Assembly: GCF_002078015.1 (NCBI RefSeq)
Contig: NZ_LWBP01000067.1
Span: 124,001-188,000 of the forward strand
DNA: 64,000 nucleotides
Direction: 5' to 3'
From: Niastella populi
GTDB lineage: Bacteria > Bacteroidota > Bacteroidia > Chitinophagales > Chitinophagaceae
Positions 18,417 through 47,966 of this stretch are shown one piece after another (position 1 is the stretch's first letter; each line of letters opens with the position of its first letter). Made by a program: the position numbers and the translations under genes. Below the pieces are notes generated by a model, which did not search any database, was not told where the DNA came from, and worked only from the letters and a program-made list of their open reading frames with translations.

Positions 18417-18744
18417 GGCTTAATGCCTGCCCGCGAAATCCGGGCTTAACTTCTGAGGCATCCCGCGAGGCTTCAACAGGCAGGGCTCTCCTGAAAGCCA
18501 GGGGTACGTTGACCGTTCAGCATTCAGTGGTCTGCCTTCAGCTTCAGCGTTGAGCATTGACCGTTCTACCTTCAGCCTTCAGCCTTTAGCGTTGAGCATT
18601 GAGCCTTCAGCCTTCAGCGTTGAGCATTGAGCGTTCAGCCTTCAGCCTTTAGCGTTGAGCATTGAGCGTTCAGCCTTCAGCGTTGAGCATTGAGCGTTCA
18701 GCCTTCAGCCTTCAGCCTTTAGCCTTCAGCCTTCAGCCTTTAAA
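18411..18744. repeat. Large heptamer tandem array (NTTNAGC), about 33 units
   Basis: From 18508 to 18744 the sequence is an almost unbroken run of about 33 seven-base units of consensus NTTNAGC, mainly CTTCAGC, GTTGAGC, ATTGAGC, GTTCAGC and CTTTAGC. One unit is 6 nt and a few are degenerate. The last unit (CTTTAAA, 18738-18744) contains the complement of the stop codon of the minus-strand helicase gene (18740-18742). On the other side, GCTTAAG, GCTTAAT, GCCTGCC at 18411-18431 contain the kinase stop codon and have the reverse-complement word. There are no CRISPR-length spacers. Confidence 0.92.
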
Positions 18745-21700
18745 GCCAGGTGGGCTTATATCCTTTATTAGCTTTTTCTTTGATCAGTTTATCTTTTTCA
18801 AGCTGGGCCGTAGTTTCCTTCGCAAAGGTTTTTACATGCACCTGCCCTTTTGTTCCTACCCTGCCATACCGAACGATCAGTTTACAGCCATCGAGGGCAG
18901 CTTCCCAGAACCGGCCCGATTCACCTTCGTTATTGATAAGCCGGTGGAATGTTAAATGATCGTACGGCGTAGCCGCTGCAGGCGCTTCCGGTTTAGCAAT
19001 ACCGGTAACTGGTTCAACCAGATCAGTGGCAGCCATTACCGGTTCGGCAGCCGCTTCCCCTTCTGGTACTTTTTCTTCTTCTTCCTGGCCGGTTTCCTGG
19101 TGCAGGCGTTTTATTATTTGCTCCAGTACCCTGTCGGGCTGGCTTAACCAGTCTTTTGCAAATACGTTGATGGTACGCCAGTTGAATGTTTGCAGAATGG
19201 CCGGGCGCTGATAATACTGCTCCAGCAGGTTCTCGTTCCTGTAATGCCGGTCATCATCGAGCAAAATACTCAGGCTATAGGTTGTATCGGTTTGTTTTGC
19301 TTTTACCGCCAGCGAACATTTAAAGTCAGACTGACCTACCTGCTCGGCCACTTCATACCCTTTCTTTTCCAGCTGCTCTTTTATCTGCTGCAGAATGATG
19401 CTATCGGCCTTTGATTTCGATCTTTCTTTTTTATGCAGCACCAGGCTGTCAAGAATGGTACGGGCCGATCTCATATCGCCACAGCTTACCAGCTCAGCGT
19501 ACTGTAAAAAGCGTTTAAAATAGTTGGCGCCTTCGTTATACTCATTGGTGATATGGTGGTGCCGTATGCTGCTTACAACCGCCATATGCTTTTTGGCGCG
19601 GCTGAATATTACGTTCAACCGTTTTTCACCACCTTTTTTATTGATGGGACCAAAATTCATGATCATCTTTTTGCGCGAGTCGAAGCCGTAACATACGCTC
19701 ATGATGATAATGTCGCGCTCATCACCCTGTACATTCTCGAGGTTCTTGACAAATAAACCGGTGAACTGATCTTCTTCCGTACGGCTCCAGGCATCTTCAA
19801 GCGCCTGTTCAAAAGCCTTGTCTTTTGACGCCAGTTTTGTCAATGCATTTTCAATGGCTTCCTGCTGCTCCTGGCTAAAGGCAACGATGCCTATACTTTC
19901 TTTTATCTTCCGTTGCAGTAATGTTTTTACGAGGAAGGCGATATAATCCGCTTCATCGGTATTGATACGTTTTTCGTAAACACTGTTGGGCAGAAAATGG
20001 AAACTGATACTGCGGTCGAACAGGGCATCGGCGTGTGTGGCCGCATCCTGTGCACTGGCAACCTCTATCGATTTCTTTTCTGTGTGATGAATGGTCTTAT
20101 CGGGGATGGTAAGCAGGTTCGCTTCATAAAAAGCGTGGTTGCTGAAACTGATCAGCGTTTCGAAGCGGCTGCGGTAATGCCAGCCCAGCATTACATTGTT
20201 CAGTTTGCGGGCGCCCTGTACCAACAGGCTGTCGGCATCATTGCTCAGCAGCTCATCATCGTCACCGTTACTATATACTTCAAGGTCATCGGGATCTTCT
20301 GTGCGAACGGTAAAGAAATTGGTTGGCGGCATTTGTTTATCATCGCCCACAATGATGGTTTGTTTGGCGCGGTACAAGGCCGGTATGCCCTCTTCCAGCG
20401 TGATCTGGCTGGCTTCATCGAAGATCACCACATCAAAGAAGCCGATATCGACCGGCAAGCTGTCACTCACACTCAGCGGGCTCATGAGCCATACCGATTT
20501 CAGGTCTTTCAGCACCAGGCCGCTTTCCTTGGCCGACAGCTCCCGGATGCTTTTGAACCGAATGCTTTTATTGAATTCATTCTCCAGGATCTTCCGGCCT
20601 TCGGTATAATTCTTTTTGAACTCGCGTTGTTCGGGCGATAACTGGCTGCTGGCGATATTGCTTAACTCTACGTTATTGAGGAAGCGCTGGCGCACCGCCG
20701 CCCTGATAAAGTCGGCATTTACTTTCAGCAATTGTTTGTAACAATGCTGAATTTGCCTTACCGCTTTTTCAATAGCCTGCATATCGGTATTGGCAAAGCT
20801 TTTATTCTGCTGGTAAATATGCGACAGGGTTTTGCTGGCCATACCTGCTTCAGCCTGTAAAGGCGTAACCGGCACCTTTCTTAACACCTCTTTTACCGGT
20901 TCTGGCAACTCGGAATATTCGCGTAAAGCCGGTAACAGGTCGCGCAGGCTTTCAGCATTCATGCTGATGCTTTCCAGCTCGTCGTAAATATCGCTTACCG
21001 GTTTGGTATCATACTCATTCAAACACTGCTGTAACTGGGCCTGCAGCTTTTGCATGTTCTGGTTCAACTTGCTCAGCTTCGTTACCAGTTCATTTGCTTC
21101 GGCATGATGCAGTAAATAATCGATCTCCTTATCGCCCTTCCGCGCCCTGATGCGCTCGATGCTTAAATGAGTGAGGTCGACATTATCGACTTTATACTGT
21201 TGTTGCAGGTAGTGCCTTTCCATAGCCACCATATTGGCGGCGTCATATTCTTCTTTCAATTGTTGCAAAACGGTGCCATAACCGGGATGTACGGCGTGCT
21301 GCGAGAAATCGTAGCTTTCATCGATCTTGTTCTTCAACCGGTTCCATTTGCTGTTCAGGAATTTAAAGAACGACTGCTCGTATTTGGCAGCCAGCGGAAT
21401 GGCAGCCAGCATATCCTGTTCGCTCAGCCTGCTCTTCCAGTTCTTATTGCGCTCTTTTATTTGCTCATATAACTGTTGCTGCTGTTTGTATAAATGAACC
21501 CCCTTATCGAATTTTCTGGCGGCTTCGTTGCCTTCATCTACCAGCGACAGGTTATCTGATTCGGCCAATGGGTTCAATACAATGGCTACCTGAACCAGGT
21601 TTTTGATCTGCTCTAACCGGTTGGTATGTTCGGGCGGAATATTGTTATCCCGTACTACAGAAGTTATATCGGTAAGCAAATTGCGGCTGTGCAACAGGAG

Positions 21701-24232
21701 GTTCTCCAGTACCGTTTGCGGATTCTCATTGCTGAAGATATGCTCGTTGATCTTACTGAAGGGGTGTTCGGCAAAAGTAGGTTCGGCGCCTGTTTCTTCC
21801 AGCGCATTGCTTAACTGCTGAATAACATTACCGAACTCAAGCCATTCTTTATAATGCGGTAATGCATCCGCATCCTTTACCGAGCGGGTTACCAGGTGCT
21901 CTTTCAATTCCACTACCCTTTCGAGTAACTTTCTGAATTCGATACCGGCCTGTTCGGGTACAGCGGTATGGGTGGCATGAAATTGTTTCAACAGTTCCAA
22001 CTGGTCATTGGTTTGTTTCAACAATGCCTCGCGGCTCAACTGGATCCTTTCGAGATCCATTTTATTTTTGGTAAAATCTTCATAGGTCTCCTTCAGGTTC
22101 CTGATGAATTCTTTTTTATCACCCAGGCTGTCGTGAATATAACAGCACAATTCATCGAGCCCCTGTTGTTTCAGGCGATGATATACAACATCGAGCGCCG
22201 CGCGTTTTTCACAAACGAACAGGATGCTGTGGCCCCGGGCCGCAAAATCGGCAATAAGGTTGGTGATCGTCTGGCTTTTGCCCGTTCCCGGCGGCCCCTG
22301 AATAATATAACTTTCTTTATCGCGGCTTTTAAGGATGGCCCTTGTTTGCGTTGGGTCGGCCGTGATCACGTGATACCAGTCATCGGTATTGTTCAGCTCC
22401 TGCGGAGTTGCGGCGGTTGGTTTTGGCTTGCTGCTGAACAACTGTTCAAACACTTCATTGGGCACCTGGTTGTCAATTACAAAATTGTAATCACGCACCA
22501 GGCTCATCTTTTTATAGTTGAAATTGCCCAATACAATATTACACATATCAAAATCCCAGCTGTACGGATTGCCTTCGCTTTCAGAAAGCTCAAACAACGG
22601 TTTTCTTCTATCGGCGTTGCTTTCCGTTAACCGGGAAGGCATAATATGCGCATCTTCGTGTCCCAGCGTTTCGAGGAACCCGGTCCTGGGTTCTACCTTT
22701 TGCCTGAATATTTCAAGTCCCAGCGGTTTATATTGTTCCTGCTGATAACTATAACCCACATCTTTATAGCTATCAAGTTGTTTGCCGGTGCGCTGCAGGC
22801 GTTTTTTGAAATTGGTGACGGTTTGTTTGGCCACGTTATGCACCAGCCTGATGCGAGGCTTTTGAATATAGTTAAGCACGATCCCCTGGTTGGCGGCATC
22901 TATCTGGCTTTTCAGCAATTGATAGAACTGCTCGGGGGTCATTTCATCGAGATCAACGAAATCGGGCAGTTCGATACCATATAATTCTTTCAGATAACTG
23001 GCCAGCACCGGGTTTACTTCGGCCACGTTATCGGTAATCTTCAATATGAAATGGTCTTCCTTTAATTTTTTGTTCTTCTTAAGTTCAGCCGGCACCAGCA
23101 ACAACGGGCTTTGGATCCTTTCATCAGGATCTTCTTTCAGGTTATGCCAGTTAAGATATACAATTACCAGTTTCAACTGGCTGAAACCATATTCCTGAAT
23201 ATCGCGTTGCGCTTCGATGCGTATTTTATCGAGCGAGGACGGCAGGTACAAATGATCTTCGAACCGCAGGTATTTGTTCAGCACAATTTCCTTCATACCT
23301 ATCACCCGTTCAGAAATATCCTTATTCCAGGTAAACAACAACTCGGGCCTGATGCTTTGATAATGCAGCACCATAGGCACGCTGCTTACCGTTAAATTCA
23401 CAAACCGCATATTCGGTTTGTAATACAATAAGCGGTTGCGCCTGCTGGTATCGAACAACCGGTTACGCAGTTTATTTAAGATAAGCTGGTTTCGGTTCGT
23501 CAGTGATTTATTAATCCAGCCGGCTATGTTACTGAGATCGGTTTGTTTTTCGGGATCGTAATCGCGGTAATGCTGCAGGCGGTTCACGATATCGTACAGA
23601 TCCTGCACCCGCTTTTGCCGGCTCAGCTCGGTCATTTCAGCGATCAGTGAGCTGATGGTAGGATGTATGCGGTGATTGTATAAGATCGGGTTGCCGCGGT
23701 ATTTTGCAAATAACGCAAGGTCTTTCTCTTCATTTAAATTCAGGCCCAGCGCCATACTGCCTAATACGCAGCCAAGACAAAATATATCGGTGAGCTCATC
23801 GTGGTGCCCGAGGTTCATTTCAAAACAACGGTAACCGGGAATATAGGCCGGCGAGGTAAGCGTTTCATTGCCATTCAGGTGAATTTGTATATTCTCTACT
23901 GAAACGGCGCTGTCATCTATATCTATTTCGGATTTTGCACTACCTGTGAGATCAAAATGCCGGGCTTTATGCCGTTCGAACAGGGCCACTACTTTGCCAA
24001 TGGCATTCATTGGCTTATGCGCTGCCCGTTCATCCACATCGAGCCGGTTTTCGGTTATGAACAATGCATTTTCATTTTCAAACGGGGCAACGAGCCCGGC
24101 TTCATGAAAGCCGATCACCTCTTTGCACAAAGGCAGCACAAATGCAATTACATCATCTGTGGCATAATCTCCGTTATCGAATGCTGTTTTCAAAAATTGC
24201 CTGAAGGATTGAACCTGTATTGACATAATCAA
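18740..24232 (-). CDS. Kinase-like/DUF4011/SF1 helicase/REase-like/WGR multidomain protein
   Basis: A cytosolic protein of 1830 residues. Residues about 105-166 resemble a protein-kinase C-lobe (SPAYIPGYRCFEMN followed by ELTDIFCLGCVLGSMALG), without HRD, DFG or glycine-rich loop motifs. A DUF4011-like region follows (about 240-480, LRNRLFDTSRRNRLLYY). An SF1 helicase has Walker A GPPGTGKS at 646-653, Walker B VVIFDEAS at 1268-1275, GDDKQMPP at 1296-1303, VQGDERDIIIMSVCYG from 1501 and motif VI NVIFSRAKKH at 1540-1549. A large coiled, helical insertion separates motifs I and II. Residues about 1610-1705 resemble the Vsr/MTES_1575 endonuclease fold, and 1757-1830 are a WGR domain. It starts 32 nt after the M48 peptidase gene. 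DUF4011 helicase-nuclease proteins are often found in defence contexts; the role here is inference. An alternative start is MSIQ at 24226. Confidence 0.88.
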   Translation of the reverse strand: MIMSIQVQSFRQFLKTAFDNGDYATDDVIAFVLPLCKEVIGFHEAGLVAPFENENALFITENRLDVDERAAHKPMNAIGKVVALFERHKARHFDLTGSAKSEIDIDDSAVSVENIQIHLNGNETLTSPAYIPGYRCFEMNLGHHDELTDIFCLGCVLGSMALGLNLNEEKDLALFAKYRGNPILYNHRIHPTISSLIAEMTELSRQKRVQDLYDIVNRLQHYRDYDPEKQTDLSNIAGWINKSLTNRNQLILNKLRNRLFDTSRRNRLLYYKPNMRFVNLTVSSVPMVLHYQSIRPELLFTWNKDISERVIGMKEIVLNKYLRFEDHLYLPSSLDKIRIEAQRDIQEYGFSQLKLVIVYLNWHNLKEDPDERIQSPLLLVPAELKKNKKLKEDHFILKITDNVAEVNPVLASYLKELYGIELPDFVDLDEMTPEQFYQLLKSQIDAANQGIVLNYIQKPRIRLVHNVAKQTVTNFKKRLQRTGKQLDSYKDVGYSYQQEQYKPLGLEIFRQKVEPRTGFLETLGHEDAHIMPSRLTESNADRRKPLFELSESEGNPYSWDFDMCNIVLGNFNYKKMSLVRDYNFVIDNQVPNEVFEQLFSSKPKPTAATPQELNNTDDWYHVITADPTQTRAILKSRDKESYIIQGPPGTGKSQTITNLIADFAARGHSILFVCEKRAALDVVYHRLKQQGLDELCCYIHDSLGDKKEFIRNLKETYEDFTKNKMDLERIQLSREALLKQTNDQLELLKQFHATHTAVPEQAGIEFRKLLERVVELKEHLVTRSVKDADALPHYKEWLEFGNVIQQLSNALEETGAEPTFAEHPFSKINEHIFSNENPQTVLENLLLHSRNLLTDITSVVRDNNIPPEHTNRLEQIKNLVQVAIVLNPLAESDNLSLVDEGNEAARKFDKGVHLYKQQQQLYEQIKERNKNWKSRLSEQDMLAAIPLAAKYEQSFFKFLNSKWNRLKNKIDESYDFSQHAVHPGYGTVLQQLKEEYDAANMVAMERHYLQQQYKVDNVDLTHLSIERIRARKGDKEIDYLLHHAEANELVTKLSKLNQNMQKLQAQLQQCLNEYDTKPVSDIYDELESISMNAESLRDLLPALREYSELPEPVKEVLRKVPVTPLQAEAGMASKTLSHIYQQNKSFANTDMQAIEKAVRQIQHCYKQLLKVNADFIRAAVRQRFLNNVELSNIASSQLSPEQREFKKNYTEGRKILENEFNKSIRFKSIRELSAKESGLVLKDLKSVWLMSPLSVSDSLPVDIGFFDVVIFDEASQITLEEGIPALYRAKQTIIVGDDKQMPPTNFFTVRTEDPDDLEVYSNGDDDELLSNDADSLLVQGARKLNNVMLGWHYRSRFETLISFSNHAFYEANLLTIPDKTIHHTEKKSIEVASAQDAATHADALFDRSISFHFLPNSVYEKRINTDEADYIAFLVKTLLQRKIKESIGIVAFSQEQQEAIENALTKLASKDKAFEQALEDAWSRTEEDQFTGLFVKNLENVQGDERDIIIMSVCYGFDSRKKMIMNFGPINKKGGEKRLNVIFSRAKKHMAVVSSIRHHHITNEYNEGANYFKRFLQYAELVSCGDMRSARTILDSLVLHKKERSKSKADSIILQQIKEQLEKKGYEVAEQVGQSDFKCSLAVKAKQTDTTYSLSILLDDDRHYRNENLLEQYYQRPAILQTFNWRTINVFAKDWLSQPDRVLEQIIKRLHQETGQEEEEKVPEGEAAAEPVMAATDLVEPVTGIAKPEAPAAATPYDHLTFHRLINNEGESGRFWEAALDGCKLIVRYGRVGTKGQVHVKTFAKETTAQLEKDKLIKEKANKGYKPTWL

Positions 24233-37564: not shown

Positions 37565-37592
37565 ATTTAGCGTTCAACGTTCTGCATTTACC
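37565..37592. repeat. Short heptamer array at the A2M stop codon
   Basis: ATTTAGC, GTTCAAC, GTTCTGC, ATTTACC: four contiguous 7-nt units. The last contains the complement of the stop codon of the minus-strand A2M-like gene (37588-37590). Confidence 0.65.
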
Positions 37593-40500
37593 TTATTTCT
37601 ACCTCTACCCCATCGTTCCAGTATTTGTATTCGGGCGTATAATACAGGTAGGCATTGCTGGCTTTTGCTTTGTAGGTACCCGCTATTTCCGCTTTAAGAT
37701 CGAGCCGGATGGTTTTTGTTTCATCGGGCGCAAATCCCATCCAGTACAACACCAGGTAATTATCGAAAATTTCATAATAGGCCACCTGGTCTTTTTCCAT
37801 CAGTTCTTTCAACTGCCAGGGTTGTACCGATAAACCCGCAGGTATGCCTATTTTGGCAATGGCCATTGGCTGCAACAGGTTTTTGGTGTTGGTGACCCCG
37901 ATATCCATCCGCATGGTTTCACCCACTTTTGTTTGAGCAGCCGCCAGCCTGGTCGTAAGCTTAAGCTCCGCTTTTTCGCTGTTTGGCGGTGTAAACGTGT
38001 TGTACGCTACCTGCAGACTATAGGGCACAGCGGAAGCCTGTTCCTGGAATTGAATACCGAATACGTTCTTACCTTCATTAACAACCGCATTAAAAGTACT
38101 GTCGGTACCAACAGTGGTTTCGTTCATTGTAAATGTAATTTGCGGGTTCTCGCTTACTTTACTTATAAGCTTTGAATATTCAACGATCGCTTTTAACGCC
38201 AGCACCGTGGCCTGTGTTGATCCATAGCCATAATAAGATTTTTCGGTAAGTACCTTCGTTATCAGGTTGGCTATTATACCTATCTCTGCCGGGGGTTCAC
38301 GCATCAATGCAAGCGCATAGAGCGCAGCGGTTTCGACCCGCAATGAGGCGTCGCGCGAATTCACCACACTGGTTTGCGAAGCAAGGCCATTCTTTTGATA
38401 AGCCGTTTGCAGCGCATCCATCAGCAGCCGGTAATCACCGGTTCTTTTCATATTCGAAGCGGCCAGTGCCATCATGGCCATCTTGTAACCATCGCTACAT
38501 TCCAATGCATGTTTAAAAGCCGCCTCGTATTCGGGTACGATCTCTTTGCCAATACCGGCCTGCGTCAATGCATATACAATGTAAATGTTGGCAATCTTGT
38601 CAGGCACAGAAGCAAAACGGTCGTACCCGCCTGATGATAATTTAAAGGAACCATTGCCATCGCGGCGCCTTAACAGAAATGCCTTTGTTCTTTCGAGCAT
38701 CTTTTTATTTACATCGACAAACTCCTGCATATCGGTGAACTCGAGCAACCCATAAGCGGTTAGCGCTTCATGCGGCGGCGTTTTGCCAAACCATTCAAAA
38801 CCATCCATAGCCGTTTCAAAACCAATCAATCGCCGGTAGCCTTTCTCAATGTAATCAAGCGCTTTTTTTTCTACGGCGGGGTTTACTATTTTCGATTCAC
38901 GCAGGTATTTCAGAATAAAAACATTCGGATAGGTGGAAGAAGATGTTTGCTCAAAACAACCATAAGGCTCCCGCAGCATAGACTCTATACCATCGAGCAG
39001 TTGTCCTTCCAGTGTTTTAAACAACTTCAGTTCGGTGCGTATACTGCCGGCCATTGCATTATTGATTGTAAACTCATGCAGCCCCGTTCTGTTGCCCGAC
39101 AGGGTTTCTATTACCGGAAATCCTTTTTCGGCAACCGTTACAGGCAGCTTTACCGTTTCTGTTCTTTGACCGGTTTCAACCACAAACTCAATAATACCGG
39201 TATCGGCAGCCATTGCTTTTATGGGTATCAGCAATTGCTGCGAACTGTCGGCCGGTAACCGGATAGTACCGGGAAATGAGCCCGTTTTCAACCCCGGAGG
39301 CAACGTTACAGTCACGCGAACGGTAGCGTCCTGTATACTGTTATTTTTTATGACCAGCGGTATCAGCGCATGATCGCCAACTGATAAATAAGGCGGAATT
39401 TTGGCATCTACCTGTAATGCGTTCTTTGTAATATAGGTATGTTCTGCCCGGCCGGCCTTTCCATTATAACCGATGCCTTCGGCAATGGCTCTGAAAGTAG
39501 TATTGGCATCCGAATTATAAAACTCCACCCGGGCTGTGCCCGTCTTATCAGTTTGTATAACCGGGTTCCAGTAAATGGTTTCTCTGAAATCGGTGCGCGC
39601 CTGCGGATAGATAGAAAGATATTTGGGTGCATAAAACCGCCGGGCAGCTTTAAATGCAGGCCCATCGGCTGTACGTACCACCTGTGAAGCAAAATATTCC
39701 GTTGCAGGCAGATCGATGCGGAACCCGCCATATTTTGTCTTTTTAGTAGATACGATAATAACGCCAAAAGCGGCGCGGCTTCCATATATAGCTGTGGCCG
39801 TAGCGTCTTTCAAAATTTCTATGTTGTCTATATCACCTGCTTCCAGCGCGGTGAGGCGATAATGTGCGGCCGGTACGCCGTCAATTATAATAAGGGGTTC
39901 CTTGCCTGATGCTATTGAATTGACGCCACGGATCTTTACATTTTCGGCTGTTCCTGCAATTCCATTTACCGGGGTTATATTCAAACCAGCCACCCGGCCC
40001 TGCAGCGCTGTTAAAACGTTGGGTGCAATACCGGCACCCTTAAATATGCCTATATTTCCTGTGCTCAGGCCTTTTGTTGAAGTTCCATAAGCGATAACAA
40101 CAACCTCATCGAGCTTGCCAGGTTTTATATTATCAAACAAACCCGTCATTGGCTGTTTCTCTTTATCAGCCGCCTGCGGCGCCATTAATTGCCTTACCCG
40201 TGTAGTAGGCGATAGTGGCACAACGGCATCTCCATTGCCTTTTGTATACAGGAGTTGGCTGCCATCGCCTTTTTTGATGGGATTATAACCAATGCCATTT
40301 TGCGTTATTTTGATATTTATTTTTTCTCTTTTATTGTATGATTGGGCAATTACATAATAATCACTTTTCGGGTAAAGCTGTGAAAAAAAGAACACGCCGT
40401 CGTCGCCGGTCTTATACAGGATGGCCCTGCCGCCAGTGACATGATGCACGAGGAATACGGAAGCCTTAACCGGTTTTTGTTTAGTATTTACGACAACCCC

Positions 40501-42132
40501 GCTTAGCACATGCGGCTGATCGGGTTGAAAAACCAGGTCGCCGTTTTCTTCCACCGCGGTAGTATAATCGAAATACCGGTAACCGTGCGTAAGCATAACG
40601 AGATCAAGCGCTGCAGCCGCAAGCGGCTCTTCTTTTTTGAAATAGAAATTCGGTTCTTCTATCTTCCCTTTCAATTCTGAGCTCATCAATAACCAGGAAA
40701 GGATATTATCCTGCCGGTCATCGGCGAGGGTCCATAATTTGTCATCCAGCACGGCGAGTGATAAATTAGCCGGCACCGGGTTCCCCATTTCATCAAACGT
40801 TTTCAATGTTAGGGTAACTTTTTCGCGGGGCAAATATTTGGGTTTATCCGTGCTAATGCCTACTTGCAGGTTCTTTTGACCGTTCAGAAAGATCAGCCGC
40901 TCCGCTACCGGTAAATTATCATCGGTAAATAATGTGAACCGCGCAATTCCGGCCGGGAACTTATTATTATCGATGGCGATCGTATTTTCACCAGCCTGCA
41001 CGGTTATCTTCTCAGTATAACAAGGGGTATTCTTGGTTTGCGCTACCAGCAACACCTCTCTTATTTGGGTAGAAGCTATTTTAACCGTCAACTCTTTACT
41101 ATCGGCATTGGTAATCTTCATGACCATACCATGTGCCGATGCCGGCGGCAGGGGGAATGGTTGTTTAATATTCGCCGGCGTGGTAATAGCGGCGCTATAG
41201 ATTTCGTTCTTTTGCGGCGTAAAAGTAAACTTTCCCATCCCAAAACGCAGGCTTTCAAAAGCGGCTACTTTATTACCCCGGCTGTCAAGTACCGCCCCTT
41301 TTACATCAACCGGTTTTCCATGTTCGTTTACTGCCCTGAACGCCATATTACCGGTAATTCCCTGTACCAGGGTTCCGCCTTCGGGCATAAACTGCAGATC
41401 GATCTTATTAAGCACAATGGGAATACTTCTTGAAACCGATTCGGTATAGGCATCGTAATGAACGGTGATGTTCAACAACCCATCGGTAGTGTTTAGTGTT
41501 TTTGGAAGTGAAAAACGCAGCAGGGCCTTTCCCCGGTCATCGGTTTGAAAAATATCTGATCGTACTACTTCACCACCAATTGATACCTTAAAGCTGGCCA
41601 CTTGATTACGTATGGGCAGGTTATCGAGATTGCGCATGGAGAAATCGGCTTTTACCTCATCACCAGCGCCATAACCTTTTTCGGGAAAGTCGAGTTTCAT
41701 CAATACCCGCGGCGCTATCACTTTCATCAACGTGATCTCCTTTACAAAAATGGTATTTTCATTTTCATTACGCATCCAGGTGGTATAGGCTTTAATTTTA
41801 TACATACCGCCGGGCGCCTCTTCGCTAAAATCAAAAGAACCTTCGGCGTAACCGTTCTCTATTCCATAATTCATCTTCTGCACTACATTTCCCGAAGGAC
41901 CCAGTATTTCTGTATAAACTACATTGCTAAGGAACGTTGGTCGCTGGCTGTTGGCATTAACCACATATATTTTGAAATACATGGTTTCGCCGGGGTTAAA
42001 AAAAACATGGCTGGTTTGCACATATACTTTTTCCTTCGTGTCGGCATACTGTATCTTTTGCGCCATACACAATACCGGATGTAAAGAGGCCATGCTCAGT
42101 AACAGCAAACAAATATTTATCGTTTTTTTCAT
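37588..42132 (-). CDS. Alpha-2-macroglobulin-like protein with internal TonB plug domain
   Basis: A 1514-residue envelope protein starting at the ATG at 42132 (MKKTINICLLLL, signal peptide to CMAQ). MG-type beta-sandwich domains fill the first 500 residues. A carboxypeptidase-regulatory-like domain is near 540-610 (LSGVVVNTKQKPVKASVFLV). A SusC-type TonB plug follows at about 675-797: VVVIAYG, LQGRVAGLNI, VKIRGVNS, PLIIIDGVP and ILKDATATAIYGSRAAFGVI. The A2M core comes next, with the bait-flanking RETIYWNPVI and the intact thioester motif GCFEQ (C1059-Q1062), then the alpha/alpha toroid complement-like domain. It begins 4 nt after the stop of the upstream plugless SusC-like gene. Protease trapping fused to a transporter plug is unusual; the function is inference. 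Confidence 0.88.
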   Translation of the reverse strand: MKKTINICLLLLSMASLHPVLCMAQKIQYADTKEKVYVQTSHVFFNPGETMYFKIYVVNANSQRPTFLSNVVYTEILGPSGNVVQKMNYGIENGYAEGSFDFSEEAPGGMYKIKAYTTWMRNENENTIFVKEITLMKVIAPRVLMKLDFPEKGYGAGDEVKADFSMRNLDNLPIRNQVASFKVSIGGEVVRSDIFQTDDRGKALLRFSLPKTLNTTDGLLNITVHYDAYTESVSRSIPIVLNKIDLQFMPEGGTLVQGITGNMAFRAVNEHGKPVDVKGAVLDSRGNKVAAFESLRFGMGKFTFTPQKNEIYSAAITTPANIKQPFPLPPASAHGMVMKITNADSKELTVKIASTQIREVLLVAQTKNTPCYTEKITVQAGENTIAIDNNKFPAGIARFTLFTDDNLPVAERLIFLNGQKNLQVGISTDKPKYLPREKVTLTLKTFDEMGNPVPANLSLAVLDDKLWTLADDRQDNILSWLLMSSELKGKIEEPNFYFKKEEPLAAAALDLVMLTHGYRYFDYTTAVEENGDLVFQPDQPHVLSGVVVNTKQKPVKASVFLVHHVTGGRAILYKTGDDGVFFFSQLYPKSDYYVIAQSYNKREKINIKITQNGIGYNPIKKGDGSQLLYTKGNGDAVVPLSPTTRVRQLMAPQAADKEKQPMTGLFDNIKPGKLDEVVVIAYGTSTKGLSTGNIGIFKGAGIAPNVLTALQGRVAGLNITPVNGIAGTAENVKIRGVNSIASGKEPLIIIDGVPAAHYRLTALEAGDIDNIEILKDATATAIYGSRAAFGVIIVSTKKTKYGGFRIDLPATEYFASQVVRTADGPAFKAARRFYAPKYLSIYPQARTDFRETIYWNPVIQTDKTGTARVEFYNSDANTTFRAIAEGIGYNGKAGRAEHTYITKNALQVDAKIPPYLSVGDHALIPLVIKNNSIQDATVRVTVTLPPGLKTGSFPGTIRLPADSSQQLLIPIKAMAADTGIIEFVVETGQRTETVKLPVTVAEKGFPVIETLSGNRTGLHEFTINNAMAGSIRTELKLFKTLEGQLLDGIESMLREPYGCFEQTSSSTYPNVFILKYLRESKIVNPAVEKKALDYIEKGYRRLIGFETAMDGFEWFGKTPPHEALTAYGLLEFTDMQEFVDVNKKMLERTKAFLLRRRDGNGSFKLSSGGYDRFASVPDKIANIYIVYALTQAGIGKEIVPEYEAAFKHALECSDGYKMAMMALAASNMKRTGDYRLLMDALQTAYQKNGLASQTSVVNSRDASLRVETAALYALALMREPPAEIGIIANLITKVLTEKSYYGYGSTQATVLALKAIVEYSKLISKVSENPQITFTMNETTVGTDSTFNAVVNEGKNVFGIQFQEQASAVPYSLQVAYNTFTPPNSEKAELKLTTRLAAAQTKVGETMRMDIGVTNTKNLLQPMAIAKIGIPAGLSVQPWQLKELMEKDQVAYYEIFDNYLVLYWMGFAPDETKTIRLDLKAEIAGTYKAKASNAYLYYTPEYKYWNDGVEVEIR

Positions 42133-42136
42133 AACG

Positions 42137-44665
42137 TTAGAATTGAATGGAGATGCTACAACCAAATGATTTTACAGAAGGAAGATTGAAAAAGTCGAGA
42201 CCGGCGGCGCCCGGCAGATCATACAGCAGTTGATTGGGATCGGCGCCTTTGTAGGAAGAGTAAAGAACAAGGTTTTGTGCGTACAGGTTTATTACCAGTT
42301 GCCGCTCATACTTTCCAAGCTTTAGTTTATAACCTACATTGATATTGTTCAACCGCAGCACATTGGCTTCCTGTATATATTCTTCCCCTATGCCACTGTG
42401 ACCGTAGCGCGTCCAGCGGCTTTGCTCAACCGGTTTGTTTACATCATAAAAACTTACCGGTTGGGTATTGGGTTGTTTATCCTGCAATACACCGGCGAAA
42501 ATATAACCTGTTGTATTTCTCGATTCGGCAGAAGAAGCCGAGCGGCCGTAATAGTCGAGCATGGCCTGCGTACCATTCCAGATCTGCCCCCCTTTACGCC
42601 ACTCCCAGCAAAGACCGATCGAGAACATTTTCCAGGTGGCGTCATTAATCATCTTCATTACAAAATCAGGGATAGGGTTACCGATCACGGTAGGTGTATT
42701 GTTCACCAGCGGGAATCCGTCGTTGCCAATAAGGATATTATTATTTGCATCGCGTTGATAAGCGGTGCCAACGATACTGCCCAGTGCTGCGCCTTTTACA
42801 ATAGCGGTATGTATATTGCTGAACCCGGCAAGGGGAGTATAGTCGTAGCCGGTATTTACAGCTGTTACTTTACTTCTATTAACGAAATAAGAGATGGTAT
42901 TTTCCGTATTGAAGTACCGGTTGCTGGTCCTGCCGGTGAACCCCACCTCTACGCCGCTATTGCGGTGGGCGGCTATATTCCTGAGCACAAGTTGATTGTT
43001 TTCCATTACCGGAAAAACATCGTTGGCGGTTGTACGGCTAAATATATTCCCATACAGCACATGCCCTTTATATCCCAGCTCAACACGCCCATTCCATTCA
43101 TTGTGTTGTATCGCCTTCAACCCATCAAAGCCTTTTACTTCGGTTACAGGAAAGAACTGAAAAGCCTGTTGGATATTAAGTTGTAGTAAACTGTTTGTCG
43201 AATAAGACCGCCCAACGGGAAGCTCGCTATTGAACCGGTTCCAGGAACCGCTTAATTTGAAGAAATAATAATCGCGGCCTGAATTATTCCCCCATCGTAC
43301 AGCCCCGCTTACATGGGGAAGAAAATAATTATTGTTGCTGACGGTGTTGGAAACATACATTTTATTGGCAAGCTTCAGTACAAGGTCCCAATTATATGGC
43401 TTGTACGAAATATCATAAAAAAGCGAAGCTTCCTGTGCAGAACGCTGGTAACGCCATGCAGCGGGCAGGCTGTACCTGATGACCGACCGGTTGTTTGCAA
43501 ATTTATAATGCGTACCTGCCGTATTGATCAGTCTGTAATCATCGAAGTGAATATCGTAAGAGGCGGTGGCGTCAAGCAAATACGAAACGTCTTTTAGGTT
43601 ACGGTCAACAGTAATACCGGTTGGAAAATATACGCTGCCCGGCTTATACCCTTCGCGGCTTAGTTGATACAGGTGTTCAACAGACTGGGTAAGCTTGAAT
43701 TTGAACAGGTCGGTTTTCTTTTCCACTATCAAACTACCGGTTTGATGTGTTTGTACAAACCGGTTGCCGTTATTCAATAGCAGGTAAATAGCATTATCGG
43801 CAACCGGACTGTAAGTTTGCGGCACATTGGGTTGGCGGGCGTTGTGAACATTATCAAAACTTACCGGCGTCAGCATCGCATTCTGATAAACGCGGTTCAA
43901 AAACCCGTTCCGGTTAGTATTAGATAATTCATCCCGCAAAAAACTATAACCTGCGGTAATACTCAGCTTTTTAAGGTTAGCATCCAACGTAGCCGATGCA
44001 TTACGTGAAGTATTTTTATTGTATTTGATAAAGGTGTTTTCTGTGGAATGCCCCAGCCTGAATGTTGTACTGTACAAAACATTACCGGCAGATCTTATTC
44101 GTGCGTTCAACCGTAATGATTGCAACAACATAGATGCCGTTCTGAAAACAGGGTTGTTATAATTATTAGCCGAACGGCCATTTCCCGTACCGGCCGCCAC
44201 CAGTTTTCCGTTGGCATCGTAAGCATAATTGCCGCCATCGTATTCCAGGGACTGCGCTGCCGGCCCATAACTGAACGGTTCGCCTGTTTCAGCGCCACGC
44301 CATACAAGGGCGCCATTTTCTGACCTACCCTGTACGTATTGGTTTTGTACGGCCGGCAACCGGTTGATGCGTTTAACTTCAACCCGCGTATTGAATTGTC
44401 CGGTCAGGTACAGCACCTTTTGATACTCAGGCTGAATGGTGAGCACGCCCTGTTTTATTCTGATGCGGCCTACCGTGAAGCCGTAATACGCTTTATTCAA
44501 TAACAAATGCGCTTGCGAAAAATTATTCATGGTATCGGGCATGAACTTCATTACAGGCAAGGTATCTGCCTGTATCAGTTCCAGGTAATCTTTCGATAAA
44601 ACGGGGGTCACTTCCTGCGAATAAGCGATCACAGGGAACAGGAGTACCAATAGCAGTCGTTTCAC
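42137..44665 (-). CDS. SusC-like TonB-dependent beta-barrel lacking a plug
   Basis: An 842-residue outer-membrane protein with a signal peptide (KRLLLVLLFPVIAYSQ). After about 70 residues it enters a SusC/RagA-type barrel at once: RLPAVQNQYVQGR is the post-plug junction, and strands such as NGFLNRVYQNAMLTPVSF and LRLNNINVGYKLKL, with the C-terminal FGCSISIQF, are typical. There is no DGVP, no KDA(S/T)A-IYGSRA and no VVVxGYG segment, so the usual N-terminal plug is absent. The following gene, 4 nt downstream, encodes an A2M-like protein with exactly this plug. The pair may form a split transporter, with the plug supplied in trans. No SusD lipoprotein gene lies nearby. Confidence 0.85.
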   Translation of the reverse strand: MKRLLLVLLFPVIAYSQEVTPVLSKDYLELIQADTLPVMKFMPDTMNNFSQAHLLLNKAYYGFTVGRIRIKQGVLTIQPEYQKVLYLTGQFNTRVEVKRINRLPAVQNQYVQGRSENGALVWRGAETGEPFSYGPAAQSLEYDGGNYAYDANGKLVAAGTGNGRSANNYNNPVFRTASMLLQSLRLNARIRSAGNVLYSTTFRLGHSTENTFIKYNKNTSRNASATLDANLKKLSITAGYSFLRDELSNTNRNGFLNRVYQNAMLTPVSFDNVHNARQPNVPQTYSPVADNAIYLLLNNGNRFVQTHQTGSLIVEKKTDLFKFKLTQSVEHLYQLSREGYKPGSVYFPTGITVDRNLKDVSYLLDATASYDIHFDDYRLINTAGTHYKFANNRSVIRYSLPAAWRYQRSAQEASLFYDISYKPYNWDLVLKLANKMYVSNTVSNNNYFLPHVSGAVRWGNNSGRDYYFFKLSGSWNRFNSELPVGRSYSTNSLLQLNIQQAFQFFPVTEVKGFDGLKAIQHNEWNGRVELGYKGHVLYGNIFSRTTANDVFPVMENNQLVLRNIAAHRNSGVEVGFTGRTSNRYFNTENTISYFVNRSKVTAVNTGYDYTPLAGFSNIHTAIVKGAALGSIVGTAYQRDANNNILIGNDGFPLVNNTPTVIGNPIPDFVMKMINDATWKMFSIGLCWEWRKGGQIWNGTQAMLDYYGRSASSAESRNTTGYIFAGVLQDKQPNTQPVSFYDVNKPVEQSRWTRYGHSGIGEEYIQEANVLRLNNINVGYKLKLGKYERQLVINLYAQNLVLYSSYKGADPNQLLYDLPGAAGLDFFNLPSVKSFGCSISIQF

Positions 44666-44810: not shown

Positions 44811-44850
44811 TTAACCAGTCAACTCGTCAACTCGTCAACTGATCACCATA
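44811..44850. repeat. Octamer array at the PorP/SprF stop codon
   Basis: TTAACCAG, TCAACTCG, TCAACTCG, TCAACTGA, TCACCATA: five units of 8 nt. The last begins with the complement of the TGA stop codon (44843-44845) of the minus-strand PorP/SprF gene. Confidence 0.72.
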
Positions 44851-45877
44851 TCTTCAAAGGGCACTCCACTTTCTCGAGGCTCTCTGCCAGTCTTTTCCAT
44901 AAGCCTGTATAGGAGAGCGATAATTCAAAACCGCCCCTGAACTGTGATGCGGTAGTGAGTTTGCTGATATTGACATCATAACTAAGCCCGATGCTCAACT
45001 GATGGGTGTACAACTTTATTATAGGAATAAACGCATCTTTCCAACGGAATGCACCGCCCACCGCAACAGATAAACTTCCTTCTTCACCATTCTCATCAAA
45101 ACAATGGGTATACAGTCCCCCACCCTGCAACAGCTGGTTGCCGCCCTGGATGAACAGGTCGGTATAAAAAACGATCTTATCCATATTGTTGATCCATGCA
45201 GACAGCCCGCCATTCAATCCCCATTTCCGGTTCAGCCGAACATCGTAGTCTTTTGTAAAGGCGATCTGCGGTTCCGTAATATGAAACAACCCGCCGCCTA
45301 CATACATGCTTACATTATTGGTTACATTCGTTTTGAAACTTACGCCAACCGATGCATCCCAATAGGTAAAACCCGTACTGCCGAATTGCTGCCGGGTAGG
45401 GTTCGAAACACTGTAGGCGCCATTCACATACTGATCATCGAAGCGCAACTTCGAAACATCAAAATGTTCGTTGACGGCCCCGCCCATAAATGCCAGCGAA
45501 AGAAAGGTAGTTTTATCGTCATTCAGTAATTTATGATAATTAACAACGGGAAATACCTGCGTGCGTTGCAGTTTTGAATCACCCGCCACGTCATTGGTTA
45601 CCTGTAAACCGGTGGTTATAAAATCGCCTGTCGAAAACCCGCGCAGCATTTTACATTCTGCGCTCAAGCCCATTGTCCGGTATGGAACCGTTACGCTTTG
45701 CCATTGATTGCGGTAGGCGCCCGTAAACCGCATATTCCCATTAAAGATGCCTGCCAGCGCCGGGTTGCGCATCAACGGGAATTCATAGAATTGCGAAAAG
45801 TGAATATCCTGGCCTTTCGCTACAGATACATGAAAGACCAGGTATATAAAAATACAACGGCGTAAATATGGGTACAT
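44843..45877 (-). CDS. PorP/SprF-family type IX secretion membrane protein
   Basis: A 344-residue outer-membrane beta-barrel-like protein. After a signal peptide (CIFIYLVFHVSVAKGQ) it has the diagnostic opening DIHFSQFYEFPLMRNPALAG and FTGAYRNQWQSV. In Bacteroidota, PorP/SprF proteins pair with gliding-motility C-terminal-domain proteins and are thought to anchor or help export them through the type IX system. That partner is the immediately upstream gene (45960-47966) on the same strand, 82 nt away, so the two are very likely an operon. Confidence 0.93.
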   Translation of the reverse strand: MYPYLRRCIFIYLVFHVSVAKGQDIHFSQFYEFPLMRNPALAGIFNGNMRFTGAYRNQWQSVTVPYRTMGLSAECKMLRGFSTGDFITTGLQVTNDVAGDSKLQRTQVFPVVNYHKLLNDDKTTFLSLAFMGGAVNEHFDVSKLRFDDQYVNGAYSVSNPTRQQFGSTGFTYWDASVGVSFKTNVTNNVSMYVGGGLFHITEPQIAFTKDYDVRLNRKWGLNGGLSAWINNMDKIVFYTDLFIQGGNQLLQGGGLYTHCFDENGEEGSLSVAVGGAFRWKDAFIPIIKLYTHQLSIGLSYDVNISKLTTASQFRGGFELSLSYTGLWKRLAESLEKVECPLKIW

Positions 45878-45930: not shown

Positions 45931-45965
45931 CTTCCGCGTTCCGCGTTGAGCGTTCCGCATTATTT
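45931..45965. repeat. Heptamer array at the T9SS-protein stop codon
   Basis: CTTCCGC, GTTCCGC, GTTGAGC, GTTCCGC, ATTATTT: five units of 7 nt of the NTTNNGC family. The last contains the complement of the TAA stop of the minus-strand gene (45960-45962). Confidence 0.72.
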
Positions 45966-47966
45966 CAGCAGGGTAACATTTCCTTTATAGGTATTTATAA
46001 GATCATTCTCACAGATCACATCGGCTATATACACATATACTTCCGAAGGTCCTGTTTTACCGCGTACGCGCCCATCCCAGCCAAAGGCAGGATCATTAGG
46101 CTGAAAGTTTTTCTTCTCAAACACCAGTTCGCCCCAGCGTGAAAATACCCTGAACGAACGAACCTGTGCAATGCCTTTACCGCGAACCATAAAAACATCA
46201 TTCACGCCATCGGCATCGGGCGAAAAGGCATTCGGGATAAACACCTGCGTATTCAAACAAAAGGTCTTTATGTTCATGGAGTCGGCGCCCACACACCCAA
46301 ATTCATTGGTAACCGTAGCACGATACGTTGTGTTCCTTGTAACTGCAGCAACAGGCGTTGAACAATTGGTGCAGCTGAGATCATTTGATGGCGACCATTG
46401 CCATGTAACGATGGGCCCGTTCTGCGTGGAAGGCGCGAAATTATAGGTGCTGCCGGTTGCCATGGTTACATCAGGCCCTACATCAACCCGCGGTTTGGGA
46501 TTTACCACCACTTTTATCAAAGCTGTATCTGTAAAACATGAATGCCCGTCGAACCCCACCACCTGGTAGGTAGTGGTTGTTTTCGGTGCTGCTACCGGGT
46601 TAGCAATATTGGCGCGGTTCAACCCCTGCGCCGGCGACCAGGTATATAGCCTCGCCGTTCCCCCCGCCTGCAGGTTCACAGTTTGTCCCTCACACATACT
46701 TTGATCGGGTGAAACCGTTACATCTATCGGTTGAAAAACGGTGATGTTCATGGTGTCTTTGTCAATACACCCGCTTTCGATGCTGGTAACCGTAACCACA
46801 TAGGTAGCTGGTTTGGGTGGCGTACCCACCGGCTGGGCCACCTGGGAGTCTGACAAAAAATCGGCGGGAAACCATTTGTAGGTAAAACCGCTGGCGGCAG
46901 GCGTGCCAATGGTTATGGGATGTTCAGGACAGATCACCGTATCGGGACCGGCATTGGCCAGCGGCAGAATGGGATAAATAAATGCCTGTAAGGTATCGCT
47001 GCAACCAAAACCGCTGTATGGGATAACGATCACATTTATAGTATTGATCTTTGGTGCGGGATCGAGCACCAGGTTTTCACCCGAGCCCAGCAACGTACTG
47101 AAATTGCCATCGTACCACCGGTATTCCTGGAAACCCGGCGGACCTGTAAAGCTGGCGATATTGGGATTACATTCATAATGCGCCATGGCCGTCACATCGC
47201 AGTCACCCACATCAACGTAGGCGTAGCCCCAATGCCCGCCCAGGGTACAATCGGCAGTCGTGAACTCCAGTTCCAGGGTTCTTCCGGCATAGGCCCCTAC
47301 ATTAATGAAAACCGATGACCAGCTCTTGTACTTAACCGAACCATCAACCGGAGATATCTTAAATCCCGGTAAGGCCGCGGTGGCAATATATTCGTTGGAA
47401 GCGCAGGGAAGGTATTGACTGGTTTGCACATCTTTCATGCGGGCAATGAAGCGCGGTTGTTCATTCTTATTGTGGCCGGGATCCTGGAAAACCACGGCGT
47501 ACCGATACGTAAATGACGCATTTTTCGCATCGGCCGGTACGGTGAACTGATAGGTGATGCGTTCCGCTTCACCCCCTTTTACATTATTACCCAGCCGCAT
47601 GGCAAAACCACTGCCATCGGGCGGGTTCACAGGGAATAAACCGTAAGGATCGACGTCGGTAGCGGCACCCTTTGCATATAGGGTATGCCTGCCTGTGACC
47701 GGGCTGGAAGGAGTTACAGTTATCGCATTATCGTTGTTCTCCACCGAAGTGGAACCAACATAACATTTCCAGTTATCCAATGCGCCGGCTTCAAAATCAA
47801 TATTGGCGGGACAGGAGCCTGCGGCTTGTTTGTAGTTTGTGGTTTGTTGCTGATGGTTGGTGGTTCCCGTTTTGGAATTCACCATTGACCATTGACCATT
47901 CACCGGTTGTGCCCAGGGATATGGCAATAGGAAGACTGATACGAATAAGGTAAAAATCCCTTTCAT
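45960..47966 (-). CDS. Secreted PKD/CHU_C protein partnered with PorP/SprF
   Basis: A 668-residue protein with a signal peptide (MKGIFTLFVSVFLLPYPWAQ). A C-rich N-terminal domain (ANIDFEAGALDNWKCY ... GHWGYAYVDVGDCD) is followed by several PKD/Ig-like repeats with DTVICPEHPITIG- and DQSMCEGQTVNL-type openings. It ends with the gliding-motility C-terminal domain FIPNAFSPDADGVNDVF and FRVFSRWGELVF, a T9SS type B sorting signal. Residues about 21-50 (low-complexity NGQWSMVNS ... TTNHQQQTTNYKQ) are encoded by the same kind of 7-nt repeats that fill intergenic gaps, a likely in-frame repeat insertion between signal peptide and mature domain. It is co-transcribed with the PorP/SprF gene. Confidence 0.9.
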   Translation of the reverse strand: MKGIFTLFVSVFLLPYPWAQPVNGQWSMVNSKTGTTNHQQQTTNYKQAAGSCPANIDFEAGALDNWKCYVGSTSVENNDNAITVTPSSPVTGRHTLYAKGAATDVDPYGLFPVNPPDGSGFAMRLGNNVKGGEAERITYQFTVPADAKNASFTYRYAVVFQDPGHNKNEQPRFIARMKDVQTSQYLPCASNEYIATAALPGFKISPVDGSVKYKSWSSVFINVGAYAGRTLELEFTTADCTLGGHWGYAYVDVGDCDVTAMAHYECNPNIASFTGPPGFQEYRWYDGNFSTLLGSGENLVLDPAPKINTINVIVIPYSGFGCSDTLQAFIYPILPLANAGPDTVICPEHPITIGTPAASGFTYKWFPADFLSDSQVAQPVGTPPKPATYVVTVTSIESGCIDKDTMNITVFQPIDVTVSPDQSMCEGQTVNLQAGGTARLYTWSPAQGLNRANIANPVAAPKTTTTYQVVGFDGHSCFTDTALIKVVVNPKPRVDVGPDVTMATGSTYNFAPSTQNGPIVTWQWSPSNDLSCTNCSTPVAAVTRNTTYRATVTNEFGCVGADSMNIKTFCLNTQVFIPNAFSPDADGVNDVFMVRGKGIAQVRSFRVFSRWGELVFEKKNFQPNDPAFGWDGRVRGKTGPSEVYVYIADVICENDLINTYKGNVTLLK
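47828..47905. repeat. Heptamer arrays inside a coding sequence
   Basis: On the + strand, GTTTGTA, GTTTGTG, GTTTGTT, GCTGATG, GTTGGTG, GTTCCCG (47828-47869), then TTCACCA, TTGACCA, TTGACCA, TTCACCG (47878-47905). They are translated on the minus strand into a Q/T/N-rich linker just after the signal peptide. The 7-nt period is kept although it is out of step with codons. Confidence 0.78.

Follow-up and report, generated by a model that had tools for sequence, protein, structure and literature searches.

A plugless barrel gene beside a plug-bearing A2M-like gene

The window, a stretch of 64,000 nucleotides of Niastella populi DNA (contig NZ_LWBP01000067.1, positions 124,001 to 188,000), carries two adjacent reverse-strand genes, one for a SusC-like outer-membrane barrel without a plug and one for an alpha-2-macroglobulin (A2M)-like thioester protein with a TonB plug inserted in it. 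A first-pass annotation of this DNA had proposed that the two make up a split TonB transporter, with the plug supplied in trans by the A2M-like protein. The A2M-like gene starts directly behind the barrel gene, its ATG at 42132 lying 4 nt past the barrel stop as that annotation had it. The features of the pair are as follows.

42137 to 44665, (-) strand: plugless SusC-like outer-membrane barrel, 842 aa, signal peptide by eye
37588 to 42132, (-) strand: A2M-like thioester protein with inserted TonB plug, 1514 aa, Sec signal peptide without lipobox (by eye)
41755 to 42030, (-) strand: MG2 domain, residues 35-126 (Pfam PF01835, E 1.1e-12)
40090 to 40110, (-) strand: Ton-box-like DEVVVIA, residues 675-681, aligned to the same stretch of 5t3r_D
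39733 to 40110, (-) strand: SusC-type plug including the Ton box, residues 675-800, Pfam core 704-791 (PF07715, E 1.3e-13; phmmer)
39580 to 39732, (-) strand: plug-to-MG7 segment with invariant F833, P836, Y838, D848 and R850, candidate counterpart of the alpha'NT strand
39307 to 39579, (-) strand: A2M family domain (MG7), residues 852-942 (Pfam PF00207, E 3.2e-8)
38176 to 38994, (-) strand: thioester domain (TED), residues 1047-1319 (Pfam PF07678, E 3.9e-27)
38947 to 38961, (-) strand: thioester motif GCFEQ, residues 1058-1062, present in 23/23 aligned orthologs and 79/79 named A2Ms (defined below)

The barrel gene product has no Ton box, plug or SusC N-terminal extension domain. A Pfam scan of the protein gave zero matches, hence no plug or STN domain scored in the same chain. 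Among 20 barrel-like matches in its own genome (8.6 Mb), only the window barrel lay in a frame of <1,000 aa (844 aa), the rest being 1025-1246 aa long; because it is the sole frame of that size, we take the plug to be truly missing, in agreement with the first-pass annotation. A profile of barrel orthologs found one PDB match, to the C-terminal strands of SusC (E 1.6e-9). The AlphaFold model (22 sequences, pLDDT 80, pTM 0.75) was matched best by Foldseek to 5fq7_D (E 2.8e-34, TM score 0.68), and its first 22 matches came from SusCD, RagAB and ButCD complexes. Judged by the ortholog profile and the predicted fold, the barrel is a member of the SusC family. Counts of predicted promoters and terminators were close to those in shuffled sequence (19 vs 20.1 and 14 vs 13.4).

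In the A2M-like protein, the MG2, A2M and TED domains and the thioester motif, by which type I A2Ms are recognised, were all present; A2M_recep and bMG10 stayed below Pfam cut-offs. The plug scored 51.8 bits against a Pfam gathering score of 23.9, and phmmer aligned residues 673-811 to residues 105-244 of 5t3r_D, the SusC of BT1762-1763 (E 3.8e-23). This alignment includes the Ton box and begins at it (LDEVVVIAYG). In BT1763 the Ton box is DEVVVTG, and its deletion or mutation caused levan growth defects like those of SusD deletion (PMC7782687, available part). Both the complete SusC-type plug, from the Ton box onward, and the intact GCFEQ behind it, with the Pfam TED around it, thus stand as first described. 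A loose lipobox pattern matched 3/79 of the related A2Ms.

A plug in the bait-region slot

A profile of 23 plug-bearing A2Ms matched the A2M chain 6tav_A (1474 aa) from residue 729 on (E 2.2e-42). We take this chain to be the human protein, numbered as in the bait-region paper. In type I A2Ms the bait region lies between MG6 and MG7. That of A2M runs from P690 to T728 (PMC9352918, available part). As the profile match resumes at 729, just past that region, the plug and its linkers occupy the bait-region place. In animal A2M the alpha'NT strand threads a channel and is freed upon cleavage, according to the same part of PMC9352918. The segment at residues 801-851, with its invariant residues, could be the counterpart of this strand. 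The linkers, 601-665 or 801-851, could still serve as bait; A2M_BRD had no Pfam match in the window A2M-like protein.

The pair is conserved across families

We searched 84,980 species genomes with a profile of the barrel, which yielded 198 relatives, and examined the best 80 (the named loci). Within these 80, the closest named relatives of the window barrel were from Niastella, at 58-59% identity. A separate search for barrel orthologs covered 99 genomes including the window's own. The two sets overlap (Niastella vici, L125/G001, and Niastella caeni, L168/G003, where the barrel identities agree) and are not independent.

A plug-bearing A2M followed the barrel in 79/80 named loci, at a distance of <=300 nt in 77, which is the adjacency across genomes that the first-pass annotation had suggested looking for. 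In the 80th, L145, the contig ends within the barrel, and in L157 the two genes are 1,200 nt apart with a repetitive small open reading frame (ORF) in the gap. The downstream A2Ms in the 79 loci had plugs of 109-202 bits. Plug hidden Markov models (HMMs) scored none of the 80 named barrel frames above 0, the N-terminus of the L198 barrel lying beyond the contig end; as a positive control, 6/6 ordinary SusC frames outside the training set scored 104-136 bits. With one pattern, a Ton-box-like motif stood ahead of the plug in 71/79 A2Ms, compared to 1/80 barrel N-termini and 1.3% of shuffles, and three other patterns matched 70, 40 and 31 of the 79 A2Ms vs 10, 0 and 0 of the 80 barrel N-termini. 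Among the 99 genomes, six others have a full-length or nearly full-length barrel ortholog, that of G003 being frameshifted, and all six (6/6) have an A2M-plug ortholog immediately downstream; three further genomes had C-terminal SusC matches only. No plasmid record carried a full-length barrel (0/72,556 covered 80%).

The named loci come from Niastella, Chitinophaga, Paraflavitalea, [Flexibacter], Chryseobacterium, Cloacibacterium and unplaced Bacteroidota bins. The plugless barrel with its A2M-plug neighbour is therefore a conserved architecture, found in several families of at least two orders, and not a local fission.

Broken frames were seen in Chryseobacterium sp. CH21, where the A2M is split into two (L181:8299-12821), and in Niastella caeni, where the barrel is frameshifted (L031:8252-10570, the same as L168 and G003). 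The plugless barrel of L032 has as its divergent neighbour a TonB receptor of the ordinary, plug-containing kind. The two broken genes are what could be cited for gene fission, a frameshift or an assembly artefact as the source of the window pair. We give this explanation practically no weight: the same layout recurs in dozens of species of several families, and the plug sits in a different protein, not on a severed N-terminus. Conservation across several families rules out fission or assembly error.

Plug and barrel occur together in loci chosen by the A2M tail

For a selection of loci independent of the barrel, we used the A2M tail alone as query against 396 order and 396 class genomes, of which 61 and 67 matched, the window's own in both. 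The resulting 101 loci comprise 61 of 73 places from the order search (58 plus the window, G015 and G024) and 40 of 68 from the class search, in which the window came up again, with L028-L031 and L215-L217, found by the barrel search, left out. A full plug was defined as >30 bits. A plugless SusC-like barrel stood next door to 18/19 full-plug A2Ms, compared to 2/82 A2Ms without a full plug (18 loci had both plug and barrel, 1 the plug only, 2 the barrel only and 80 neither of them; Fisher p 9e-17, for loci that are related to one another). Adding the barrel-found loci (108 in all) changed the counts to 25, 1, 2 and 80. Both barrel-only loci, L109 and L114, kept the Ton box and the first part of the plug (9.0 and 8.2 bits), and these truncated A2M plugs adjoin a plugless barrel with a CarboxypepD_reg-like N-terminus. 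An orthologous barrel with its own plug beside the same kind of A2M, which the first-pass annotation had named as a finding that would speak against a split receptor, was looked for and was absent: none of the 108 A2M loci had an adjoining SusC-like barrel with its own plug.

Covariation and selection

Controlling for TED and MG1-5, the distances of plug and barrel had a partial correlation r of 0.48 over 85 loci and 0.69 over the 44 Chryseobacterium-type loci; this test, of a type prone to false positives, omitted L031, L109, L114, L145, L157, L168, L181, L198 and near-duplicate barrels. Among the latter, the control regions of the A2M gave 0.55 (segment 801-851), 0.24 (MG7) and 0.18 (C-terminus). 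Since control regions correlated with the barrel as well, it is mainly the Chryseobacterium-type result that favours a link specifically between plug and barrel. In 16 Chryseobacterium-type pairs, some of them inflated by probable plug swaps, the median ratios of nonsynonymous to synonymous substitution rates (dN/dS) were 0.161 for the plug, 0.092 for the barrel, 0.086 for TED, 0.081 for MG1-5, 0.075 for the C-terminus and 0.051 for MG7. Both plug and barrel are thus under purifying selection, weaker on the plug than elsewhere because its value is the highest of the regions.

Several results weigh against a plug that works in the neighbouring barrel. The plug is the fastest-evolving folded part of the A2M, with the highest dN/dS; within the genus the window plug is 42-54% identical to its orthologs, compared to 80-86% for MG7 and 73-78% for TED. 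In the 41 loci outside the Chryseobacterium type, the plug-barrel partial r was 0.10 (p 0.13) and that of the C-terminus 0.24 (p 0.003), and over the 85 loci MG7 (0.24), the C-terminus (0.24) and segment 801-851 (0.37) also correlated with the barrel. On the A2M tree the plug changed four times and the barrel twice (sign test p 0.5, few events); of the independent pairs 2 agreed, 0 disagreed and 2 were uninformative, numbers that put significance out of reach. Besides the truncated plugs of L109 and L114, plugs are altered in L079 and L080, and the plug-bearing A2M of L097 has no barrel in its vicinity. The plug was poorly predicted in a model of A2M residues 1-950 (pLDDT 22-58 in blocks of ten), loose Ton-box patterns also match the N-termini of some barrels (10/80), and the A2M plugs do not form one clade on the plug tree, where they are mixed with SusC plugs, although its supported branches allow a single origin. 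Finally, Pfam found no SusD among the six neighbouring genes of the window; the relatives were not scanned for SusD.

Three further MG2 proteins of the window's own genome, of ~800 aa (L034:8571-11048, L035:3398-5788 and L036:9866-12331), end after an MG7-like part and contain degenerate plug-like sequence. That of L035 is preceded by a lipoprotein-like gene and a TonB receptor that, by eye, contains its own plug.

Some of these observations would suit an A2M plug that is a mere TonB-binding or docking module, which energises or places the A2M while the barrel is closed in some other way or is an open pore. Fast plug evolution, the truncated plugs of L109 and L114, the barrel-less plug A2M of L097 and the plug-like remnants in the three MG2 proteins, which have no plugless barrel beside them, all point in this direction. 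We nonetheless consider such a module unlikely, as it leaves unexplained why a plugless barrel stands beside 18/19 full-plug A2Ms in the 101-locus set.

Origin of the split and exchange of plugs

When 27 plugless barrels were placed in a tree with 27 plugged ones (ordinary SusCs), one branch separated the two groups (Shimodaira-Hasegawa-like approximate likelihood ratio test, SH-aLRT, 100). In barrels from outside the Chitinophagaceae, what looks like the N-terminal CarboxypepD_reg domain of SusC is still present, and the Ton box and plug expected next are missing. By eye, such an N-terminus was seen in L078, L114, L151, L216 and L217, of which L078, L216 and L217 branch near the base of the plugless side; in Pfam scans, the L109 barrel matched CarboxypepD_reg at 27.4 bits (E 3.6e-6), below the cut-off of 32.2, and the L151 barrel had zero matches. 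Because basal plugless and Chryseobacterium barrels seem to keep the extension, it seems that a SusC lost its plug and later, in Chitinophagaceae, its N-terminal extension domain too.

The A2M plug has probably been replaced at times by SusC plugs. The DNA of L165 and L199 (Chryseobacterium) is ~78-89% identical on both sides of the plug and 48-58% identical in most windows inside it. The A2M plug of L199 (Chryseobacterium taiwanense) is 71% identical to the plug of a 965-aa frame in the same genome, compared to 59% to the A2M plug of L165; from its length and plug this frame is likely a SusC. Such a pattern is consistent with the takeover of a working plug. The A2M plug was probably exchanged in L173 and L177 (Chryseobacterium) also, where the drop in identity is confined to the plug region. 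For the window plug a swap with a SusC is no more than possible: it is 50.7% identical to the A2M plug of G003, compared to 49.3% for the closest of the SusC plugs tested from its own genome.

The A2M plug might also act as a universal stopper that also closes ordinary SusC barrels and halts uptake under protease attack. Its identity of ~30-56% to many SusC-length frames of its own genome and the apparent exchange in L199 would fit. Ordinary SusC barrels, however, have plugs of their own and the conserved partner of the A2M is a plugless barrel, and we regard this function as very improbable.

An ECF sigma gene and a second plug in Chryseobacterium

In Chryseobacterium and Cloacibacterium loci that were read whole, the order is an extracytoplasmic function (ECF) sigma gene, a membrane protein with a plug, the plugless barrel and the A2M-plug gene. 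An ECF-type cluster was present in 46/79 named loci, and 38/65 ORFs ending just upstream of the barrel had a plug of >10 bits. The membrane protein of these loci combines a brief cytosolic stretch, a single membrane helix and the Plug domain, in some cases with VWA and a type IX secretion tail. Its position and membrane helix suggest that it may be an anti-sigma factor; no HMM matched such a role. Two examples of a plug on such a presumed anti-sigma factor beside an ECF sigma gene are L151:3253-5610 (checked with Pfam) and L155:4351-5472, both from Chryseobacterium. A plug encoded elsewhere for this barrel, the other finding that the first-pass annotation had named as adverse, thus exists in part, as the second plug of the Chryseobacterium membrane protein; next to the window pair there is none, and the window neighbours scanned included no sigma or anti-sigma gene and no plug-bearing membrane protein.

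Other A2Ms have a short cytosolic N-terminus and a membrane helix of their own (L097:9108-14600, L100:3474-8807, L117:3477-8789 and L118:9246-14690). They adjoin an ECF sigma-like gene (Pfam-checked in L097 and L118), and from this layout they may act as anti-sigma factors. The Plug of L097 is above the Pfam cut-off and plug parts of L118 are below it; both have CarboxypepD_reg. In L216 the gene order is an ECF gene, a small membrane protein, a 156-aa exported protein made of two half-plug repeats (L216:4123-4593) and then the plugless barrel.

TonB-dependent transducers of the FecA/FecR/FecI family work with an ECF sigma factor and an anti-sigma factor. Because in Chryseobacterium an ECF sigma gene and a plug-bearing membrane protein precede the pair, signalling is a serious rival to import. 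By analogy with FecA/FecR/FecI, the A2M plug, and in Chryseobacterium the plug of the membrane protein as well, could act as an envelope sensor that tells the cytoplasm what state the barrel is in: once the A2M plug was lost or cut, the second plug would be free to dock, which would alter the activity of the sigma factor. The gene order, the frequency of the ECF-type cluster and of the upstream plug, and the membrane-helix A2Ms beside ECF-like genes, L097 with its Plug among them, all speak for a sensor. On the other side, no sigma gene or plug-bearing membrane protein lies beside the window pair or was recognised in the loci of the six relatives among the 99 genomes, no plug of >10 bits stands just upstream of the Niastella and Chitinophaga barrels, and the anti-sigma role is read from position and helix, without an HMM match. 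We rate its chances at somewhat below even.

Other genes of the window

Directly upstream of the barrel lie genes for a PorP/SprF-family outer-membrane protein (44843 to 45877, (-) strand) and a CHU_C protein with a type B C-terminal domain (45960 to 47966, (-) strand), which look like a separate type IX secretion system anchoring pair. We considered them as part of the unit and rejected this; they are upstream in 4/4 same-genus loci and missing in L032 and L033. Further away, 18740 to 24232 on the (-) strand encodes a protein of 1830 aa in which DUF4011 is combined with AAA helicase parts, an MTES_1575 nuclease and WGR, a type known from candidate defence systems.

A proposed split receptor

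We believe that the two genes probably encode a natural split TonB-dependent outer-membrane receptor whose gate is carried by a periplasmic thioester protein. The barrel, a SusC derivative, would sit gateless in the outer membrane. The A2M-like protein would reach the periplasm via its Sec signal, and its plug would enter the barrel from below and close it. TonB would then pull on the A2M rather than the barrel, because the Ton box sits at the start of the A2M plug. As the plug replaces the bait region, we propose that its withdrawal (or cleavage) is coupled to the conformational switch of the A2M. The thioester would then lie directly beneath the pore, ready to bond an incoming protein or peptide.

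Judging from the sequences, the steps differ in how likely they are. A plug working in the neighbouring barrel is the simplest account of why a plugless barrel is kept beside a Ton-box plug protein, and we hold with good confidence that the plug would dock there. Pulling of the plug by TonB is likely too, though we are less sure of it. That the thioester fires when the plug is removed and the gate opens is doubtful. A SusC plug was displaced from its barrel in vitro (PMC7782687, available part). By analogy with A2M behaviour, the best-fitting roles would be to trap incoming proteases at the pore or to sense a breach of the envelope. A bolder version, which we put forward as improbable, is that TonB force rather than a protease cut fires a complement-like trap under the pore, while in Chryseobacterium the second plug competes for the socket and so signals that the gate has opened. 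The interpretation in the first-pass annotation is in sum partly supported. Its core, a split TonB transporter with the plug in trans on an A2M, is well supported by the conserved pairing in 79/80 named loci; peptide import and gating of the barrel by A2M cleavage are possible functions.

Relation to known systems

The barrel fold, the plug and the Ton box are those of SusC-family transporters (SusCD and RagAB, with BT1763, BT2264 and RagA), as is the N-terminal extension that seems to be kept in barrels outside Chitinophagaceae. Here, in contrast, plug and Ton box are on a separate protein, and SusD is absent among the six window neighbours scanned. With type I A2Ms (E. coli YfhM/ECAM and that of Salmonella), animal A2M, complement C3 and TEP1, the A2M-like protein shares the MG, A2M and thioester domains with GCxEQ. 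It differs in the TonB plug in the bait slot and in the lipobox, which is absent by eye whereas YfhM is named a lipoprotein. The Chryseobacterium pair resembles the TonB-dependent transducers in standing behind an ECF sigma gene and a membrane protein. Unlike in those systems, STN was unmatched by Pfam in the window pair and the L151 barrel, the membrane protein bears a plug, and the sigma and membrane-protein genes are not beside the window pair. The cork and barrel of FhuA were reportedly made as two proteins in E. coli (J. Bacteriol., around 2003), with the plug closing and energising the barrel in trans, which would show in principle that this can work. That split was engineered; the one described here occurs in nature, with the plug inside a different protein.

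Judged by titles and the starts of abstracts, searches of 5.39 million open papers (subscription papers and outside preprints not covered) turned up none on this architecture, and the available part of PMC12611786 has nothing on an A2M-plug architecture. Beyond the first-pass annotation, the analysis adds the position of the plug in the bait slot, the occurrence of the pair in several families of at least two orders, the probable exchange of plugs and the related A2Ms beside ECF sigma genes.

TonB receptors are recognised by a plug in their own barrel, and the movement of this plug in the course of transport is a matter of debate. The pair suggests a two-part import gate or sensor that has not been described. 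A conserved natural split would let plug, barrel and energy coupling be handled separately, and would connect the complement-like proteins of bacteria, in a phylum that is common, with transport at the outer membrane and with ECF signalling.

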